Shown here: piece after piece, positions 25,936-35,782 of the stretch
Numbering within the stretch: the stretch's first letter is position 1
Layout of the letters: every line of letters starts with the position of its first letter
Assembly: GCA_015234045.1 (NCBI GenBank)
Contig: JADFWU010000027.1
Location: 1-40,417, forward strand
Origin: Magnetococcales bacterium
Lineage (GTDB): Bacteria > Pseudomonadota > Magnetococcia > Magnetococcales > JADFWU01
Direction of reading: 5' to 3'
Length of the DNA: 40,417 bases
Program-made: the position numbers and the translations under genes
The notes under the pieces: generated by a model
What the model saw: only the letters and a program-made list of their open reading frames with translations
What the model was told of the DNA's origin: nothing
Database searches by the model: none

Positions 25936-27138
25936 CTACATCACTGAAGGCAGATAGATACCAGTCAACAGCTTGATCAACAGGTAAAATCCATCCAACA
26001 CGGTTCCGCTCTTATCCGTGGCTGCAAAGGCATAGCTTCCGGTAACAAACACCATGGTAAACGCAATACCCAACCCCTTGGCCAGCGGATGTTTACTGGG
26101 ACGGTATTTATACCGTTTTCGCATGAACCTCTGGAAATGACCATAAAAGATGATACCAACAGCATGATATAGCCCCCAAAAGAGCCAGTTCAGCGTTGCA
26201 CCGTGCCATAGACCAATAGTGGCCATGGTTGCCAATACCGCATGAGTGGGATTGCGGGTCAGTCCAATCATCGGCATATAGATATAGGCACGACACCAAC
26301 CGGACAGAGAGATATGCCAGCGCTGCCAAAATACCTGAATGTTGGATGCCAACACTGGAAAATTGAAGTTCTCCATAATTCGAAAACCAAACAGCCGTGA
26401 TGAACCGATGGCAATATCCGAATATGCTGAGAAATCAAGATAGGCGTAGATAAAAAACAGAACCACATACATCCAGGTACGCATCCATGACGCCAACTCT
26501 GGGTCGTTAACGGCTTGGGCAACCAACGGCGCACTCATCAAGGGAATGATTATCCCCTCGGCGATGACAAACTTTTTGATTAAACCATGGGCAATGCGTG
26601 TCAGACCATCGGCAATATCGGCAGAATTGATAGTCTTACTGCGGTTCTTAATGAATGCATCAAACCGCTCAATAGGACCTGCCGGATAGATCGGGAAAAA
26701 GAAGATATATAGAAAAAATATGGAAAAATCGTGCTGTTTTATGTTTCCACGCCGAGTTTCCAAGGCATAATGAATCAGCTTGAAGGTAAAATAGGAGATG
26801 CCGAATGGCAGAACCAGTGACATCACCGCCTCATTGTCACTGATAAACTGACCCAGCAATGCAGGACGCAGCTTGAAAAAAGCCAACTGAGCAATCAATC
26901 CCCAGATCAACCAGGAGAGAATGCGCCGTTTGGATTCATCTCCCCCGTTCAGATGCCGCGAACAATAATAAAAAGCACTGGTCCACACAATAAGCGAGAC
27001 AACCGCCATCCAATCGGCTGGTAACAACAACCCCACCGAAACGATACCAAGAAACGACACCCTGAAACGGTCAGGAATGAGCCAGAAAACAACGGCTGCA
27101 CCTAATAAAACCAACCAGTAGGAAAGATCGGTGATCAT
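25936..27138 (-). CDS. MBOAT-family O-acyltransferase (DltB/AlgI-like)
   Basis: 400 residues with about ten or more membrane segments. The MBOAT core is clear: F-P-I-Y-P-A-G-P-I-E-R-F, D-F-S-A-Y-S-D-I-A-I-G, F-W-Q-R-W-H-I-S-L-S, and the active-site His312 in L-W-H-G-A-T-L-N-W-L-F-W-G. DltB passes D-alanine from its carrier protein through a membrane funnel to the outer face; AlgI and PatA do the same with acetyl groups. As last gene of the operon it sits 47 bp after the DltX-like microprotein gene and downstream of carrier-protein and ligase genes, which points to an ACP-linked donor rather than acetyl-CoA. The ATG at 27138 has a weak GGGG 5 nt upstream; an in-frame GTG lies at 27144. Confidence 0.9.
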   Translation of the reverse strand: MITDLSYWLVLLGAAVVFWLIPDRFRVSFLGIVSVGLLLPADWMAVVSLIVWTSAFYYCSRHLNGGDESKRRILSWLIWGLIAQLAFFKLRPALLGQFISDNEAVMSLVLPFGISYFTFKLIHYALETRRGNIKQHDFSIFFLYIFFFPIYPAGPIERFDAFIKNRSKTINSADIADGLTRIAHGLIKKFVIAEGIIIPLMSAPLVAQAVNDPELASWMRTWMYVVLFFIYAYLDFSAYSDIAIGSSRLFGFRIMENFNFPVLASNIQVFWQRWHISLSGWCRAYIYMPMIGLTRNPTHAVLATMATIGLWHGATLNWLFWGLYHAVGIIFYGHFQRFMRKRYKYRPSKHPLAKGLGIAFTMVFVTGSYAFAATDKSGTVLDGFYLLIKLLTGIYLPSVM

Positions 27139-27147
27139 TGACACCCC

Positions 27148-27185: not shown

Positions 27186-27329
27186 CTAGAAGCCTGCATA
27201 ACGAAAGACCTGCGCCCCACTTTTTGCGGCATACAGTTCCATAAAAGCCCAAACCAACCCCATATACAAACCCAAAAACTGAAGCGTTCTGCCCACCCAA
27301 ACCAATCCATTTTCAACACGGTTTTTCAT
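27186..27329 (-). CDS. DltX-like 47-residue membrane microprotein
   Basis: A short open frame of 47 codons ending in TAG. It has a basic N-terminus (K2, R4, R14), one membrane helix (about 16-34) and the exact C-terminal motif F42-R-Y44-A-G-F47, that is F-x-Y-x-x-F at the very end. In Dlt systems DltX is a similarly small membrane protein next to DltB and DltD; its C-terminal F-x-Y-x-x-F tyrosine carries the acyl group between the MBOAT and DltD. Its ATG overlaps the DltD-like stop by 4 bp (ATGA), and AAAGG lies 6 nt upstream, both strong signs of a real gene. It is short enough to be missed by automatic calling. Homology to DltX is inferred from length, position, topology and motif, not from an alignment. 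Confidence 0.85.
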   Translation of the reverse strand: MKNRVENGLVWVGRTLQFLGLYMGLVWAFMELYAAKSGAQVFRYAGF

Positions 27330-28450
27330 GGCGTACCTTTGCTGTGCAGAATGGTGTTCAACGAAGGAACCAGGCGTGCGACCAAAGCCTGTTCATACTT
27401 GGCTCTACTCTCTGGCCCATAAAGATGGGTCGTATCCCTATAATCCGCTTCTACCAGCCCTGCTTCCTGATCCAAGTGCCACAACGGTAACGCCATCTCT
27501 TCAGCAAAGTTGGCTACAACCGTACGATAATAGCCATAACGCTCAGGAAAACGCGCCACCACATCAGGATGAATGGGCGGTTCCCAAAGAACAACCTGCA
27601 TACCACTGTGAGATCTCACGTTATCCACAAAGCGACGAAGCACTTCAATATTGGCCTGATGCGCTGTTTCAATACGCTTTAAACGATCTTCCACAATAGG
27701 CCAGTAAAAACGCTTCCAACGGTCTGCCGTGGCATAGCTTTGGTCAAGTTTTTGATTGTGCATCCGATAGCGCGGCGCTCCCTTGATGGGATTTAACAAT
27801 ACAGCGCGTGCCCGCGCACTGAAAAAATCCATATGATCGAACAAATAGTTGCCACTGGGCAGATCGCCATTTACCCCTGCCAGTTTCTGTTCCCTGTAAA
27901 AAGCCGCAGAATCAAGCGCCAGCCTGGGTTTTCTCAATAGGTCGCCATCCGTTTGCAAAGACTTGGTCAAAGAGCCAATTCCGGCAGAAACCAGCACAAC
28001 ACCCTGAATCCCCTTTGGCAGATAATCACTCACCGCCAACATATCCCACAGGCTGAGATCAGCCGCCGCCAGAAGATGAAAACGCGCCGGCGCAGTTAAC
28101 TTATCTGATAGCGTTTTCCCCAATCCTTCCGGCGACTGAATCGCCATCCGTGCCGAAGAGGCACCCAGCAAAAAAACACCCAGTTCAGGATGTGCATTGC
28201 GCTTTAACTGGTAGCTTTTAAACGTGAGCCATGCGTAATAATCCGCTGATTGACGCATCATCGTATTGGCTGGAGACGCTGCAATCCGCTCTGGTGTCCA
28301 GTACCACGACAACACGAGAAAATGTACAACAGCGGCAATAAAAGCCAACAATACAACCCACAGATAAGGCCTGACAAGCCCGTGGGCAAAGGCACTCCAG
28401 TAATGATATAAACCGATGGATCCACCCTGTTCAGCCTTGGAATCAGCCAT
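27326..28450 (-). CDS. DltD/AlgX-like membrane-anchored SGNH hydrolase-type protein
   Basis: 374 residues: a short cytoplasmic N-terminus, one membrane helix (about 29-50) and an extracytoplasmic SGNH-like domain. The nucleophile block is L-L-G-A-S-S-A-R (Ser98/Ser99), and the C-terminal catalytic pair is D339-T-T-H342 in the D-x-x-H arrangement, followed by L-Y-G-P as in DltD. DltD takes the D-alanyl group from DltX and places it on teichoic acid; AlgX and related proteins acetylate alginate. Here the acceptor is unknown, but a periplasmic or surface polymer is expected. The gene overlaps the ligase gene by 8 bp and the DltX-like gene by 4 bp. Confidence 0.82.
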   Translation of the reverse strand: MADSKAEQGGSIGLYHYWSAFAHGLVRPYLWVVLLAFIAAVVHFLVLSWYWTPERIAASPANTMMRQSADYYAWLTFKSYQLKRNAHPELGVFLLGASSARMAIQSPEGLGKTLSDKLTAPARFHLLAAADLSLWDMLAVSDYLPKGIQGVVLVSAGIGSLTKSLQTDGDLLRKPRLALDSAAFYREQKLAGVNGDLPSGNYLFDHMDFFSARARAVLLNPIKGAPRYRMHNQKLDQSYATADRWKRFYWPIVEDRLKRIETAHQANIEVLRRFVDNVRSHSGMQVVLWEPPIHPDVVARFPERYGYYRTVVANFAEEMALPLWHLDQEAGLVEADYRDTTHLYGPESRAKYEQALVARLVPSLNTILHSKGTP

Positions 28451-29963
28451 TGGTCAACTCCACTTTCAGGGCATCATAGTCTATTTTACCATGTCGGGTT
28501 ACAGGCAGAGCCGAACGGCGTTCCCAGCGCTGAGGCATCATATGTGGCGGCAGGTTTTTTCGAGCAAATTTTTTCAGATCTTTCAGCACCGCATCACCTC
28601 CATCGGACACCACGACAGCAACAACAGCTGTTCCAAGAAGCGCATGCGGTTGACCAAAAACCGCTGACTGACTGATCAGACCCGATGCATTGAGCATTTT
28701 TTCCACCTCAACAGGTGACACCCGAACACCCATCACTTTGAGCTGGCTATCACGCCTACCATGAAAATGGAAAAAACCCGCTGAATCCCGCCAACCATAA
28801 TCACCCGTGCGACACCCCATTACCGGCTGATCGCTGTGCTTGGCATGGATTGGTTGCAGCAACGGCTCCAACGGATGTTCACCGCCCCTCCAGTAACCCG
28901 CAGCAACGCCTGCACCAATATGTACTAACTCACCAATCGTATCATCCGGCACTTGCCGACCCGCATCATCCACCACTATCAAATCCACACCAACAATAGC
29001 GCGACCAATACTCTCCGGTCGATCTCGCACCATTTCCGGACATAAACAAGCGGATCGGTAGGTCTCGGTCAAACCGTAATTGAGATAGAACGCCCCACGC
29101 GGCATCTGCTCAATCAATTGCGCTAAAACAACTGACGGCAATGAACCACCAGAACTTGTAATGACGCTCAAAGAAGATTTATCAATACCCGAAAACGGAG
29201 ACATACCGGTCATCAAATGGGTAATCAAGGCAGGCACCGCTGCCAAAACCGTTGGACGCTGTTGCTCAATGGTATTACATACTGAATGCAGATCATTGCG
29301 CTCAGGAATAATGAGCGTGGCACCACTGGCAACAGACACCTGCCACTGAACAAAACCAAAATCAAATGACCATGGCACCGGACAAAGCAGACGATCTGCC
29401 TCGGCAATACCATGATACTCAGCCACACGATGCGCACCATCCAAAAGCGTTGAATGACGCTGCACTACGCCTTTTGGCTGTCCCGTGGAACCTGAGGTAA
29501 ATACAATGGAGGCAAAGGATTCAGAATCAATAGAAAAACGTTCAGAAACCGGCGAAGCATCATCACTCGGTAAAATCTCCGCCGCAGACAAACCCATCAC
29601 TTTCGCAGGCAGTTCAACAGGCAGTTTAATGGAATGGATTACAGCGGTTGCCGCCGTAGTCTCCAGCACATGGCTTAACTGTGGCGCTTTACTTTGGGTA
29701 TTGATCAGGACAATGACACCACCCGCAGCCCATACCGATGTTATGGCAATGGCCATTTCCAACGAGGGCTCCATCCAGAGCACAACCCGATCTCCTTGAC
29801 CGACACCCGCCTCCGCCAGCTGTTGTCTGCCATGATTAGTGGCAACAACCCACGCACCAACAGTGAGCGTCCGCGCAGCGTGAATCACCGCCAAAGCATC
29901 AGCATTGGTGGTCATGCGGTGTTGTAACACCTCCAGAAGATTCCTCGCCCCTGAAGCGGTCAT
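28443..29963 (-). CDS. AMP-forming amino acid/acyl ligase (ANL superfamily, DltA-like role)
   Basis: 506 residues with the full set of adenylation motifs. The P-loop is F-T-S-G-S-T-G-Q-P-K-G (155-165), with Y-G-L-T-E-T, R-T-G-D-Y-G, the hinge region G-R-R-D-S-Q-L-K and the catalytic Lys493 in H-G-K-I-D-Y. It would activate a carboxylate with ATP and load it on the phosphopantetheine of the carrier protein encoded at the head of the operon. In overall context it resembles both DltA and the AMP ligases found in exosortase-A loci together with a PLP decarboxylase. The specificity pocket cannot be read reliably, so D-alanine is not assumed. It starts 5 bp after the sulfotransferase gene and overlaps the DltD-like gene by 8 bp. 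Confidence 0.87.
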   Translation of the reverse strand: MTASGARNLLEVLQHRMTTNADALAVIHAARTLTVGAWVVATNHGRQQLAEAGVGQGDRVVLWMEPSLEMAIAITSVWAAGGVIVLINTQSKAPQLSHVLETTAATAVIHSIKLPVELPAKVMGLSAAEILPSDDASPVSERFSIDSESFASIVFTSGSTGQPKGVVQRHSTLLDGAHRVAEYHGIAEADRLLCPVPWSFDFGFVQWQVSVASGATLIIPERNDLHSVCNTIEQQRPTVLAAVPALITHLMTGMSPFSGIDKSSLSVITSSGGSLPSVVLAQLIEQMPRGAFYLNYGLTETYRSACLCPEMVRDRPESIGRAIVGVDLIVVDDAGRQVPDDTIGELVHIGAGVAAGYWRGGEHPLEPLLQPIHAKHSDQPVMGCRTGDYGWRDSAGFFHFHGRRDSQLKVMGVRVSPVEVEKMLNASGLISQSAVFGQPHALLGTAVVAVVVSDGGDAVLKDLKKFARKNLPPHMMPQRWERRSALPVTRHGKIDYDALKVELTNG

Positions 29964-29968
29964 TGGAT

Positions 29969-30898
29969 TTATTGCCTCGCCTTCATTCCAGCGACCAACA
30001 ACTCAAGCTCAAGCCGTCTTTTGGCCATGGCATCGTCTTCTTCTTGCAATACGACCTTCTCGTATCCCAACGACTCAAGAAGTGTATTCGTTTTTTTTGC
30101 CAACCGTCGAATCACTGTTGGCGGCATGGCACGATAGCGTCCAACACTCGAACGACTGACATGATTAAGCTGATAGGTTTTCCAATCACCTAGTCCGGCA
30201 CCTGTCTTTGGCTTGAAAGCCTCTTCCAACAATGCGGTGATATCGGTTTCAATGCCTAGAAAATCAAAGACACCACTCAGTGCCGCAGCAGGATCATTGG
30301 TCAGATCTTCATACCGTACCAAAGTAACGCGATCAGGATGACGTTCTTTTAGATCAAGAATCTGTTTATTGCAGTCCATCCAAGCATCCAGACACGCATC
30401 CAAGGGCCGACTGTCACGAATAAAATAAGGGTGCAATTCCGCTGGGATCCGCGCCATCTTAGCGATCAATTCTTCAATGGAGTGGACCGCATCCAGACCA
30501 TGACGCACAATAGCCACATAGCGCACATGATCACCACACATCGACTCAAAACCAGGTAGTAAAAAGGTATCAAAAGCGGTTTTCTCAGCCCAAAGCGGCT
30601 TGTCCTGTTGGTCCGCCAACTCCCGAAGGAAACCAAACACCAACTCTCGAAGACGTTGATGAATTATCTGCTCTTTTATACCGGAATAACTTAATCCCGG
30701 CACCACACCGGTAGCCAATCCGTTGCCAAAGGATTCTGACTTCAAGAAACGCGCACACGCGCCAAACAGATATGTCTCCGCAGGACAGGCAATTTTTGGA
30801 TGGGCATCCAACAGACGTCTCAGCAGCGTCGATCCACTGCGTGGCGCACCTAAAACAACAATACCTTCATAAGGGAGGGTATCCGGCAGGGCATTCAT
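29969..30898 (-). CDS. PAPS-dependent sulfotransferase family protein
   Basis: 309 residues, apparently cytosolic. The 5'-phosphosulfate loop is G-A-P-R-S-G-S-T-L-L near residues 17-26, and the 3'-phosphate motif is I-V-R-H-G-L-D-A-V-H-S. A later R-Y-E-D-L-T motif is standard for the family. Such enzymes move sulfate from PAPS to hydroxyls or amines of sugars, lipids or small molecules. The gene is 7 bp after the decarboxylase and 5 bp before the ligase, so it is co-transcribed with the Dlt-like genes. Either the transferred group or the acceptor glycan may be sulfated. A few members of this fold have lost activity; nothing here suggests that. Confidence 0.82.
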   Translation of the reverse strand: MNALPDTLPYEGIVVLGAPRSGSTLLRRLLDAHPKIACPAETYLFGACARFLKSESFGNGLATGVVPGLSYSGIKEQIIHQRLRELVFGFLRELADQQDKPLWAEKTAFDTFLLPGFESMCGDHVRYVAIVRHGLDAVHSIEELIAKMARIPAELHPYFIRDSRPLDACLDAWMDCNKQILDLKERHPDRVTLVRYEDLTNDPAAALSGVFDFLGIETDITALLEEAFKPKTGAGLGDWKTYQLNHVSRSSVGRYRAMPPTVIRRLAKKTNTLLESLGYEKVVLQEEDDAMAKRRLELELLVAGMKARQ

Positions 30899-30905
30899 TG
30901 AGCAT

Positions 30906-32162
30906 TCATCCGCAAGAAGAAGAGTGGGATATATCCGTCACAACCGGTTTACCTTCCGCCATACCGGTTACCAGGATTTCCCGCGCTGCGGGATGACCGA
31001 TGAAGGCTTCAGGACTGGCAGTCAGACCATAAGCACCAGAGGACGAAATACCCAGCACATCACCGGTAGAGAGCGCTGGCAAAGTAATCCGCTGGGAAAG
31101 AATATCAATGGTGGTACACAATGGACCGGTCAGCATCATGTCGGTATCCTCTGCTGGCTTGATCGACCCACGCACCTTGAAAATCGGATAGTTACGTCGA
31201 ATCACCATGCCCAACATGCCAAATGCCGCGATATGATTATTAAATCCGCCATCACAAAGCGCGATATCCGTGCCACGGCTCTGTTTTTTACGTATCACTG
31301 AGGTGAGAAAATAACCACTCGGACCGATCAGATAACGCCCCATCTCCAACGCCCGTACAGCATTTTTAAGACGTGGATGCGTTGCAACGGGCTGGATGGC
31401 TTGTCGTATCCGTCCTGCCAGATCATCCAAATCCAATGGCACATCATTATCGTGGTATGGAATACCAAAACCTGAACCAAAGATAAGCTTTTCAGGATGA
31501 AGGTCATGACGTTCCGAAAATCGGATGAACAACTCACCCATAATCGCAATATTTTCTGCAATCCCTTCCGCATTCAATGAGTTGGTACCAGAATAGATAT
31601 GAAACCCTTTTAACCGCAGATTGGAAAACACATCAAAACGGTCAAGCACCGCATCAACCTGCTCTTCATCTATGCCAAACTGACTGGGTTTTCCAGCCAT
31701 ACGCACGCCAAACTGTTTGGGCACAGTCAGTGGATTAATGCGCAACAAAACCGTCATCACCTGCCCGGCTTCGCCTGCGAGTTGATCCAATTCAGCCAAC
31801 TCATCCGCACTTTCACACACCACTTCGCCACAACGATTTGTGATGGCAGAAACCAACTCAAAGCGCCGTTTAGCAGGACCAGAAAAAGTCAACCGATCTC
31901 CAGACCACCCCTGCTCAACCGCCCGTTCCAACTCACCGGAAGAGGAAACGTCCAGCGTATCCACCCTATCCAACAGATGACGAATGAGGGTCCGATTGGG
32001 ATTACTTTTGACTGCATAGCTGACTTCAAACAGATCACCTAAAGCGGTTTTAAGTGCTTTAATTCTATCGTTCAGGGTATCTTGAAAATAGACATAGCAG
32101 GGCGTGCCAAACTGCTTGGCAACCGTATTCAGAACGCCATGAAGGTCTTTATCATCCATCAC
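30906..32162 (-). CDS. Fold-type III PLP-dependent decarboxylase (LysA/BtrK-like)
   Basis: 418 residues with the alanine-racemase-type barrel and a C-terminal beta domain. The PLP Lys is K52 in Y-A-V-K-S-N-P. Further cofactor motifs are G-F-H-I-Y-S-G-T, the glycine-rich G-S-G-F-G-I-P-Y, and E-M-G-R. The substrate motif reads G-P-L-C349-T-T-I-D, where diaminopimelate decarboxylases have C-E-S-x-D, so meso-diaminopimelate is not the expected substrate. BtrK of butirosin biosynthesis and the exosortase-A-associated decarboxylases are relatives; BtrK works on an amino acid held by a carrier protein. A carrier-protein gene lies 6 bp upstream. A decarboxylase acting on the ACP-bound amino acid is my preferred reading; a racemase role would be the alternative. 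Confidence 0.8.
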   Translation of the reverse strand: MMDDKDLHGVLNTVAKQFGTPCYVYFQDTLNDRIKALKTALGDLFEVSYAVKSNPNRTLIRHLLDRVDTLDVSSSGELERAVEQGWSGDRLTFSGPAKRRFELVSAITNRCGEVVCESADELAELDQLAGEAGQVMTVLLRINPLTVPKQFGVRMAGKPSQFGIDEEQVDAVLDRFDVFSNLRLKGFHIYSGTNSLNAEGIAENIAIMGELFIRFSERHDLHPEKLIFGSGFGIPYHDNDVPLDLDDLAGRIRQAIQPVATHPRLKNAVRALEMGRYLIGPSGYFLTSVIRKKQSRGTDIALCDGGFNNHIAAFGMLGMVIRRNYPIFKVRGSIKPAEDTDMMLTGPLCTTIDILSQRITLPALSTGDVLGISSSGAYGLTASPEAFIGHPAAREILVTGMAEGKPVVTDISHSSSCG

Positions 32163-32168
32163 AATCCC

Positions 32169-32411
32169 TCACTCTGTGGATTTACCAATAAATCCTTCGA
32201 TACGCTCTACGGAATCCAGATTATCAAGGGTGACATCATCCGGCGAGATACGGAACCCAAAGTTTTCCTCCAGAAATGTCATCAAGGTAACCAGAGAAAA
32301 TGAATCAATCATGCCGCTGCTGAACAGCAAGGTGTCAGGCTGCACCTCGTCCAAATCCATACCCAGTTCGTCATCCAAAAATGTCAGAATACGGTTGCGA
32401 ATATCGGACAT
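32169..32411 (-). CDS. Acyl/aminoacyl carrier protein (DltC-like)
   Basis: 80 residues, acidic, four-helix carrier-protein fold. The phosphopantetheine serine is Ser37 in G-M-I-D-S-F-S-L-V, in the canonical position at the start of helix 2. It is the first gene of the seven-gene operon, 6 bp before the decarboxylase. It should be the tether to which the AMP ligase loads its substrate, as DltC does for D-alanine and BtrI for glutamate. An AGAGGAA sequence lies about 10 nt before the ATG. A role in fatty acid synthesis is unlikely, given the neighbours and the absence of fab genes. Confidence 0.9.
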   Translation of the reverse strand: MSDIRNRILTFLDDELGMDLDEVQPDTLLFSSGMIDSFSLVTLMTFLEENFGFRISPDDVTLDNLDSVERIEGFIGKSTE

Positions 32412-34099: not shown

Positions 34100-35743
34100 T
34101 CAGATCGGTTCGTCACCACTCTTCCGATAAAACAATGGCGGATGAAAACTCAATTTTTCATGATATTCAATTTCCAACTCAAATGTTTCCAGTAGCGTGT
34201 GGACAACTGTATCATGAGAGTTAGGCGCATGGGTTAGCGACAACGAACGCTGATAATCAATGTCCGAAGAGTCACCTGCCCAAACGATGATCGGTACATG
34301 GGTTTGAGCTTCAGGCGCAAACATATAGGGCATCCCATGCAGATATAACCCGTTCTCACCGAGCGATTCTCCATGATCTCCGATATAGAACATGGATGTT
34401 TCAAAGTTCTTCTCATTGGCCTTTAACAGGCCAATCACTTCTGATAAAAAATAGTCCGTGTAGAGTATGGCGTTATCGTAGGCATTCACGATTTCGCTTT
34501 TGCTGCACTCGGATAACTCATTTGTTTGACAGGCCGGTTTGAACTGTTCGAACGCTTTTGGATACCGTTTATAGTAAGCTGGCCCATGGTTACCCATCTG
34601 ATGCAAAACAATCAGTATGTCTTCCTGATGCGCATCAATAAATTCCTGAAGACCTGAAAGCATTCCAATATCCCGGCACTCAACATCACAAACAGGATTC
34701 ACATCAGGCGACTTGTAGTCTACATACTCTATTCGGTTCGCCACCCCCTTGGAACTGGAGTTATTATCTCTCCAAAGGACAGTAACACCTGATTTTTTCA
34801 ATATATCCAGTACGTTTTCAGTGTACTTGGCAGAAGAGCGATCAAAATCTTTTCGGCCGGAAAAAGAGAACATGCACGGTACTGAGATTGCTGTAGCCGT
34901 ACCACATGAAGAGACCTGACTGTAATTGAGCACCTGTTTGATCTTTGATAATCGTGGATTGGTTTCTCGTGAATATCCATTAAGTGAAAAATGATCGGCT
35001 CGAACCGCTTCTCCAACCACGACAATGACCAGTTCATGAGCGACATCATCCTCTTGACGTGTGACATCACCTGCAATCATTTTAAACTTGGGTTGATCAC
35101 CCTTGATCGCTTTATGAACATATCTTCCAATGGAATAGATCGGATAGACTGGATTAATCTCATATCGTAGATTTTTATGTTCGCGAACCGCACTGGTGTA
35201 TTGAGCACTATTGGAACCAAAACAGAGCACCATAAACAACAATGAAATCAAAGCAGTCTGGAGAACAAAACGCTTATCATGAAGCCATTTTTCCCGTTTG
35301 ATTGGCGCATACCAGACAAGAACCGCTGGCAGAACCCCCATCAAGCCCACATGAAACACGATCCCGAAGTTAATCAGATCCAGAGCTTCTGATGCATTGG
35401 TTTCCAATAAGTTGTGGATCATATCTCTGTCTATCACCACACCAAACTGATTGGAAAAATAGCCGGTGATCGACGCAAAAATCAGCAACACCCCGCCAAC
35501 AACGCGGAAAGGCAGGATGAGGTTAAACATACTGATAAGCAGCACTAAAAAAGCACAAAAAAACAGGAACATGGAGATCAGAAAAACAGCGTTCCCAGAC
35601 CAGGGATAGATTTCCATGACATGCTCAAAGAATTTTATATTGCCACTACACGCCAAAAACAGCGCAATCAAAACCATAAGTTTTGACTTTCCCCACTTTT
35701 CCGGAAGGAAAGAACTATAATTATTAACTTTTATCATTCTCAT
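34100..35743 (-). CDS. Phosphoethanolamine transferase (EptA-like sulfatase-fold enzyme)
   Basis: About 547 residues. Five N-terminal membrane helices (to about residue 180) precede a periplasmic alkaline-phosphatase/sulfatase-fold domain. The nucleophilic Thr lies in S-C-G-T-A-T-A-I-S-V-P-C-M-F, and the zinc-site D-H-G-E-S-L-G-E is intact, as is H-Q-M-G-N-H-G-P. EptA transfers phosphoethanolamine from phosphatidylethanolamine to lipid A; relatives modify heptose or flagellar and other surface proteins. Paired cysteines suit the usual periplasmic disulfides. Start codons at 35755 (TTG), 35743 and 35737 (ATG) are possible; none has a clear ribosome site and 35743 is a compromise. No PmrAB-like regulators adjoin it. 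Confidence 0.88.
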   Translation of the reverse strand: MRMIKVNNYSSFLPEKWGKSKLMVLIALFLACSGNIKFFEHVMEIYPWSGNAVFLISMFLFFCAFLVLLISMFNLILPFRVVGGVLLIFASITGYFSNQFGVVIDRDMIHNLLETNASEALDLINFGIVFHVGLMGVLPAVLVWYAPIKREKWLHDKRFVLQTALISLLFMVLCFGSNSAQYTSAVREHKNLRYEINPVYPIYSIGRYVHKAIKGDQPKFKMIAGDVTRQEDDVAHELVIVVVGEAVRADHFSLNGYSRETNPRLSKIKQVLNYSQVSSCGTATAISVPCMFSFSGRKDFDRSSAKYTENVLDILKKSGVTVLWRDNNSSSKGVANRIEYVDYKSPDVNPVCDVECRDIGMLSGLQEFIDAHQEDILIVLHQMGNHGPAYYKRYPKAFEQFKPACQTNELSECSKSEIVNAYDNAILYTDYFLSEVIGLLKANEKNFETSMFYIGDHGESLGENGLYLHGMPYMFAPEAQTHVPIIVWAGDSSDIDYQRSLSLTHAPNSHDTVVHTLLETFELEIEYHEKLSFHPPLFYRKSGDEPI

Positions 35744-35782
35744 CGCGGTAATCAATCACATGTAAAGACGCATTGTATAGTC

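Follow-up and report, generated by a model that had tools for sequence, protein, structure and literature searches.

A free-standing microprotein with a terminal FxYxxF motif as a probable acyl shuttle in a Gram-negative MBOAT–SGNH operon

An operon of a Magnetococcales bacterium encodes a 47-residue protein that very probably serves as a separate (trans) acyl shuttle within an MBOAT–SGNH envelope-acylation machine operating by Dlt logic. The gene (27186..27329, minus strand) lies in a stretch of 40,417 nucleotides, hereafter referred to as the window, between genes encoding a DltD-like protein and a DltB-like MBOAT. In the Dlt system, D-Ala travels from DltB to DltD bound to the Tyr of an FxYxxF motif in DltX, and in PatA/PatB the motif sits on the MBOAT itself and becomes acetylated (PMC12148441). 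According to the same account, MBOAT/SGNH pathways other than Dlt are without a DltX-like microprotein and without a carrier protein (PMC12148441); the window operon encodes both a DltX-like microprotein and an acyl carrier protein (ACP). A preliminary description of this DNA had proposed that a DltX-like relay links the MBOAT to the DltD-like protein, and the sequence comparisons and structural models reported here support such a role. It had further argued that the relay chemistry operates outside Gram-positive bacteria, which our comparison likewise favors but which is not in itself new, as the relay is already known there for MBOATs carrying the motif in cis, PatA/PatB being the precedent (PMC12148441). 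What is new is a separate shuttle microprotein in Gram-negative bacteria, accompanied by a BtrK-like decarboxylase that suggests an omega-aminoacyl cargo, not D-alanine.

The operon runs on the minus strand in the order ACP (32169..32411), PLP decarboxylase (30906..32162), sulfotransferase-family gene (29969..30898), AMP-forming ligase (28443..29963), DltD-like gene (27326..28450), microprotein and MBOAT (25936..27144). The genes overlap or are spaced by 5-7 nt, save for 41 nt ahead of the MBOAT. The ACP, with a D-S phosphopantetheine site, and the ligase, of the amino-acid adenylation type, were assigned from profile matches and would take the roles of DltC and DltA, respectively; the sulfotransferase-family assignment has the same basis. 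The closest solved structure of the decarboxylase, by sequence match, is BtrK, a glutamyl-ACP decarboxylase.

The 402-residue MBOAT matches the Pfam MBOAT family at 92 bits and has DltB as its best NCBIfam match (TIGR04091, 179.7 bits, under the equivalog cut-off of 375). DltB was the only protein matched by sequence in the PDB. It is also the best fold match of the AlphaFold2 model of this MBOAT (mean pLDDT 87.9; E 6.6e-15), with Hedgehog acyltransferase next (1e-8). His277 and His314 are invariant in the alignment and correspond by motif to the active-site histidines His289 and His336 of DltB (PMC11035591). The residue previously singled out as His312 is indeed a conserved, active-site-type histidine; it is numbered His314 when counting starts from the GTG at 27144. 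A C-terminal FxYxxF of the PatA/AlgI type is absent from the window MBOAT, which ends in GIYLPSVM.

The DltD-like protein is a predicted membrane-anchored SGNH transferase. Its model, which has an overall pLDDT of only 65.5 and is reliable in the core alone, has SGNH hydrolases as fold matches, N. gonorrhoeae PatB among them (Z about 13); DltD itself is absent among the fold matches listed for this model. The SGNH fold is accompanied by the Ser...Asp-x-x-His signature, with Ser98, Asp339 and His342 invariant in four diverged relatives that are about 20% identical. Of the earlier proposal of Ser98/Ser99 as acceptor residues, Ser98 thus holds as the conserved serine while Ser99 does not. Pfam DltD (PF04914) matched neither this protein nor any other encoded in the genome, and a profile built from such SGNH partners finds proteins adjoining other MBOATs. 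When the DltD-like protein was used to look for an orthologous operon, it remained unmatched in the genomes of the class (48) and of the phylum (398), in plasmids and in the genome collection.

Judged from gene content, the pathway would start with the ligase charging the ACP with an amino acid, which the BtrK-like decarboxylase would trim on the carrier to an omega-aminoacyl group such as 4-aminobutyryl. By analogy with DltB/DltX/DltD and PatA/PatB, the DltB-like MBOAT would then pass the acyl group through the membrane, via His314, to Tyr44 of the microprotein, and the DltD-like SGNH protein would accept it on Ser98 and transfer it to an extracytoplasmic acceptor. Among solved structures, two BtrK entries match the decarboxylase best (218.6 bits, the next enzyme scoring 142.8), and the ACP is encoded adjacent to it, 6 nt away. 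BtrK converts glutamyl-S-BtrI to 4-aminobutyryl-S-BtrI, so that butirosin biosynthesis likewise pairs an ACP with a PLP decarboxylase from this subfamily, one that works on an ACP-bound amino acid (PMC7857480). A trio of ligase, ACP and BtrK-like decarboxylase genes (the decarboxylase at 46% identity) also occurs in a polysaccharide cluster with no MBOAT nearby (L220:8458-11575). Given the BtrK-like decarboxylase, its adjacency to the ACP and the recurrence of the trio, an omega-aminoacyl cargo in place of D-alanine is plausible from gene content, although we put it at somewhat short of an even chance. The butirosin loading enzyme BtrJ is an ATP-grasp ligase, whereas the window ligase is AMP-forming, and here the group would in addition be exported to the envelope. 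If confirmed, the decarboxylase points to a cargo that is neither D-alanine nor acetate.

A competing explanation retains the shuttle but takes the pathway for plain D-alanylation, that is, a true Dlt system with the decarboxylase and the sulfotransferase as unrelated passengers. The NCBIfam assignment of the MBOAT to DltB agrees with this, as do matches of the DltC and DltA profiles to the ACP and the ligase, but the three proteins all fall far below the equivalog cut-offs, and the ligase scores 349 bits with TIGR03098 against 164 bits with DltA. The position of the decarboxylase gene directly past the ACP gene, and its closeness to an ACP-dependent enzyme, also speak against a passenger. Moreover, the decarboxylase is not the sole member of its superfamily in the genome, as a second, lower-scoring TIGR03099 match is found on contig C28, presumably a lysine-pathway enzyme. 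We therefore regard plain D-alanylation as unlikely, and return to the microprotein as a shuttle whose cargo may be an omega-aminoacyl group.

The translated product of the microprotein gene is MKNRVENGLVWVGRTLQFLGLYMGLVWAFMELYAAKSGAQVFRYAGF (47 residues). Its gene features were correctly described beforehand: the ORF has 47 codons, its ATG (27329-27327) overlaps the TGA of the DltD-like gene as ATGA, and an AAAGG ribosome-binding site (27336..27340) precedes the ATG with a 6-nt spacer. The MBOAT start lies 41 nt downstream of the ORF. The single membrane helix noted earlier is predicted for residues 16-34 (27228..27284), with a maximal Kyte-Doolittle value of 1.31, a moderate hydrophobicity that is the lowest among 13 such proteins. 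Translation places the hexapeptide FRYAGF (27189..27206) at the very end of the protein as residues 42 to 47 and its tyrosine at Tyr44, both as originally read, 10 residues past the helix. We infer a single-pass protein with N-in/C-out topology; the charge flanking the helix, net +2 on both the N side and the C side, favors neither orientation.

The microprotein thus resembles DltX (PF12459) in its size of about 50 residues, its single transmembrane helix, its terminal FxYxxF with the invariant Tyr, and its gene context, in which a DltB-type MBOAT, an SGNH protein, a ligase and an ACP are encoded alongside. It differs in that the gene lies between the dltD-like and dltB-like genes whereas dltX heads its operon, in the Gram-negative host, in the added decarboxylase and sulfotransferase genes, and in the lack of a profile match. 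The profile check suggested in the preliminary description came out negative: in a Pfam search at E values up to 10 the window microprotein matched no family, DltX included. Because of this, it is DltX-like but not a demonstrated DltX homolog. Neither did the Pfam DltX model match any of the ten trans microproteins scanned, the window ORF among them, or any protein in 299 genomes of the phylum (controls from B. subtilis and L. lactis were positive) or in the 26 genomes of the fetched loci. Such trans microproteins may be homologous to DltX but too diverged for a profile of 43 positions, or they may be convergent. As far as sequence comparison goes, a relay that would work like that of DltX is well supported; it is this mechanism, and not membership in the DltX family, that the comparative evidence supports.

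The case for the shuttle is strengthened by a census of 184 distinct bacterial MBOATs with a complete C-terminus, drawn from all fetched loci. A FxYxxF-type motif is present in cis at the C-terminus of 168 of these and absent in 16, including the window MBOAT. Twelve of the 16 motif-less MBOATs, counting that of the window, have nearby a microprotein ending strictly in FxYxx[FN]; the search covered 3.5 kb, with a wider context for hard cases, and was partly guided by the motif, so that this count is not blind. Another two adjoin a small ORF with a variant ending of the type LVYKxF/M (LVYKNM at L209 and LVYKIF at L210), bringing the range to 12-14 of 16. In control loci only one of 11,604 small ORFs (25-70 aa) carries a terminal FxYxx[FN], a rate at which chance does not explain the 12 cases. 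Motif-less MBOATs are thus nearly always accompanied by such a microprotein. The endings are FRYAAF at L023, on the divergent strand; FIYVSF at L045; FIYWDN at L046; FIYVDF at L059, a Candidatus Chisholmbacteria contig where the gene overlaps that of the MBOAT as ATGA; FLYGRF at L208; FEYRVF at L204, at the opposite end of the gene cluster from the MBOAT; and FEYQ(Q/K)F at five enterobacterial-type loci. No shuttle motif was found at L205 in cis or in trans. This locus (L205:7039-10765), with genes for a ligase, an SGNH-like protein and a diverged MBOAT, is the clearest exception to the cis-or-trans rule. L145 likewise yielded no microprotein; it looks like a broken or truncated cis-type gene and was set aside. 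If confirmed, the rule that the motif is present in cis or in trans and almost never absent offers a simple test for missing subunits of envelope-acylation systems.

Trans microproteins range from 36 to 55 residues in length, with one hydrophobic segment and a spacer of 8-16 residues to the Tyr. In an alignment of 12 of them, Met1 and the Tyr are the only invariant positions, and the helix and terminal motif are the only features common to them. That these two features alone are shared argues against regarding the microprotein as a structural subunit that tethers the MBOAT and the SGNH protein, the acyl group travelling by another route, e.g., over Tyr397 in the GIYLPSVM tail of the MBOAT. MAFFT does place Tyr397 against the Tyr of the cis motif, and DltX itself forms a heterotrimer with DltB and DltD, binding both (PMC12148441), but neither phenylalanine of the motif occurs in the tail, and no comparable Tyr is found at the ends of the other trans MBOATs. 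A purely structural subunit is accordingly improbable in our view, compared with a microprotein that carries the acyl group on its own tyrosine.

The microprotein ORF is a real gene. Three same-strand frames are open across the region, and openness alone is hence no proof of coding. Codon usage, trained on eight large window genes, some of them from this operon but excluding the microprotein ORF itself, gave the ORF a score of +0.237 per codon, within the 0.16-0.26 spanned by the large window genes. Because this score ranks first among the 142 window ORFs of 40-60 aa and the five alternative frames over the ORF are all negative, we assign the gene with high confidence. A chance open frame with a coincidental resemblance, to which the open neighboring frames and the failure to find an ortholog in the 398 phylum genomes would lend themselves, can scarcely be credited in view of the codon scores, the low background of the motif and the occurrence of a like arrangement at at least 11 further loci.

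In a quick maximum-likelihood tree of the MBOATs, a single branch with a support of 98 parts the cis set from the trans set, a split that is provisional given the long branches and the quick method. Provisionally, a single fusion or a single fission would explain it. The cis-motif systems, among them PatA/PatB, AlgI/AlgJ and WssH, share with the window system the combination of an MBOAT with an SGNH partner, a tyrosine hexapeptide relay and a Gram-negative envelope; in contrast, their MBOAT itself bears the motif, fused to it on two additional helices, with acyl-CoA as the donor, whereas the window encodes an ACP and has the motif on a protein apart from the MBOAT. A fuller picture, which we advance tentatively and hold to be rather more doubtful than probable, is that of a Gram-negative pathway in which an omega-amino acid (e.g., 4-aminobutyrate) would be made on an ACP by decarboxylation, be ferried through the membrane esterified to the Tyr of an independent microprotein and be joined to a surface glycan or lipid, with an unannotated set of trans shuttles serving the bacterial MBOATs on one side of a deep two-way split.

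In the loci analysed here, separate shuttle microproteins span several lineages of the Pseudomonadota and one candidate phylum, contrary to the published account (PMC12148441). Dlt genes have been reported in Dickeya and Pectobacterium (PMC5541007). Three of the enterobacterial-type loci were examined in larger context and hold Gram-negative dlt operons (L206:5673-9503, L207:5952-9840 and L211:5411-9225), whose microproteins were unrecognised by Pfam where scanned. Like the window, they combine dltA, dltB and dltD in a Gram-negative host with a microprotein, here of 39-40 aa and ending in FEYQ(Q/K)F, encoded between dltB and dltD. DltA (377 bits), DltB (202) and DltD (59) of L206 score higher against the Dlt profiles than their window counterparts, and no BtrK-like decarboxylase was seen there.

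Several further gene arrangements were observed. The L204 cluster (L204:2591-8495) comprises the FEYRVF microprotein, two tandem similar proteins of ~400 aa, an FkbH-type gene and the MBOAT at the far end. At L210 (L210:7203-10380), a cis-motif MBOAT adjoins the motif-less MBOAT, with the small ORF ending in LVYKIF between them. In the window itself, a gene for an EptA/MCR-type phosphoethanolamine--lipid A transferase (34100-35755, minus strand; NF028537, 627 bits, cut-off 500) is located upstream of the operon on the same strand, past a transglycosylase gene. The operon ligase and decarboxylase resemble exosortase-associated families, and an exosortase (PF09721, 141.6 bits) is encoded elsewhere in the genome, on another contig (C22:52358-53086).
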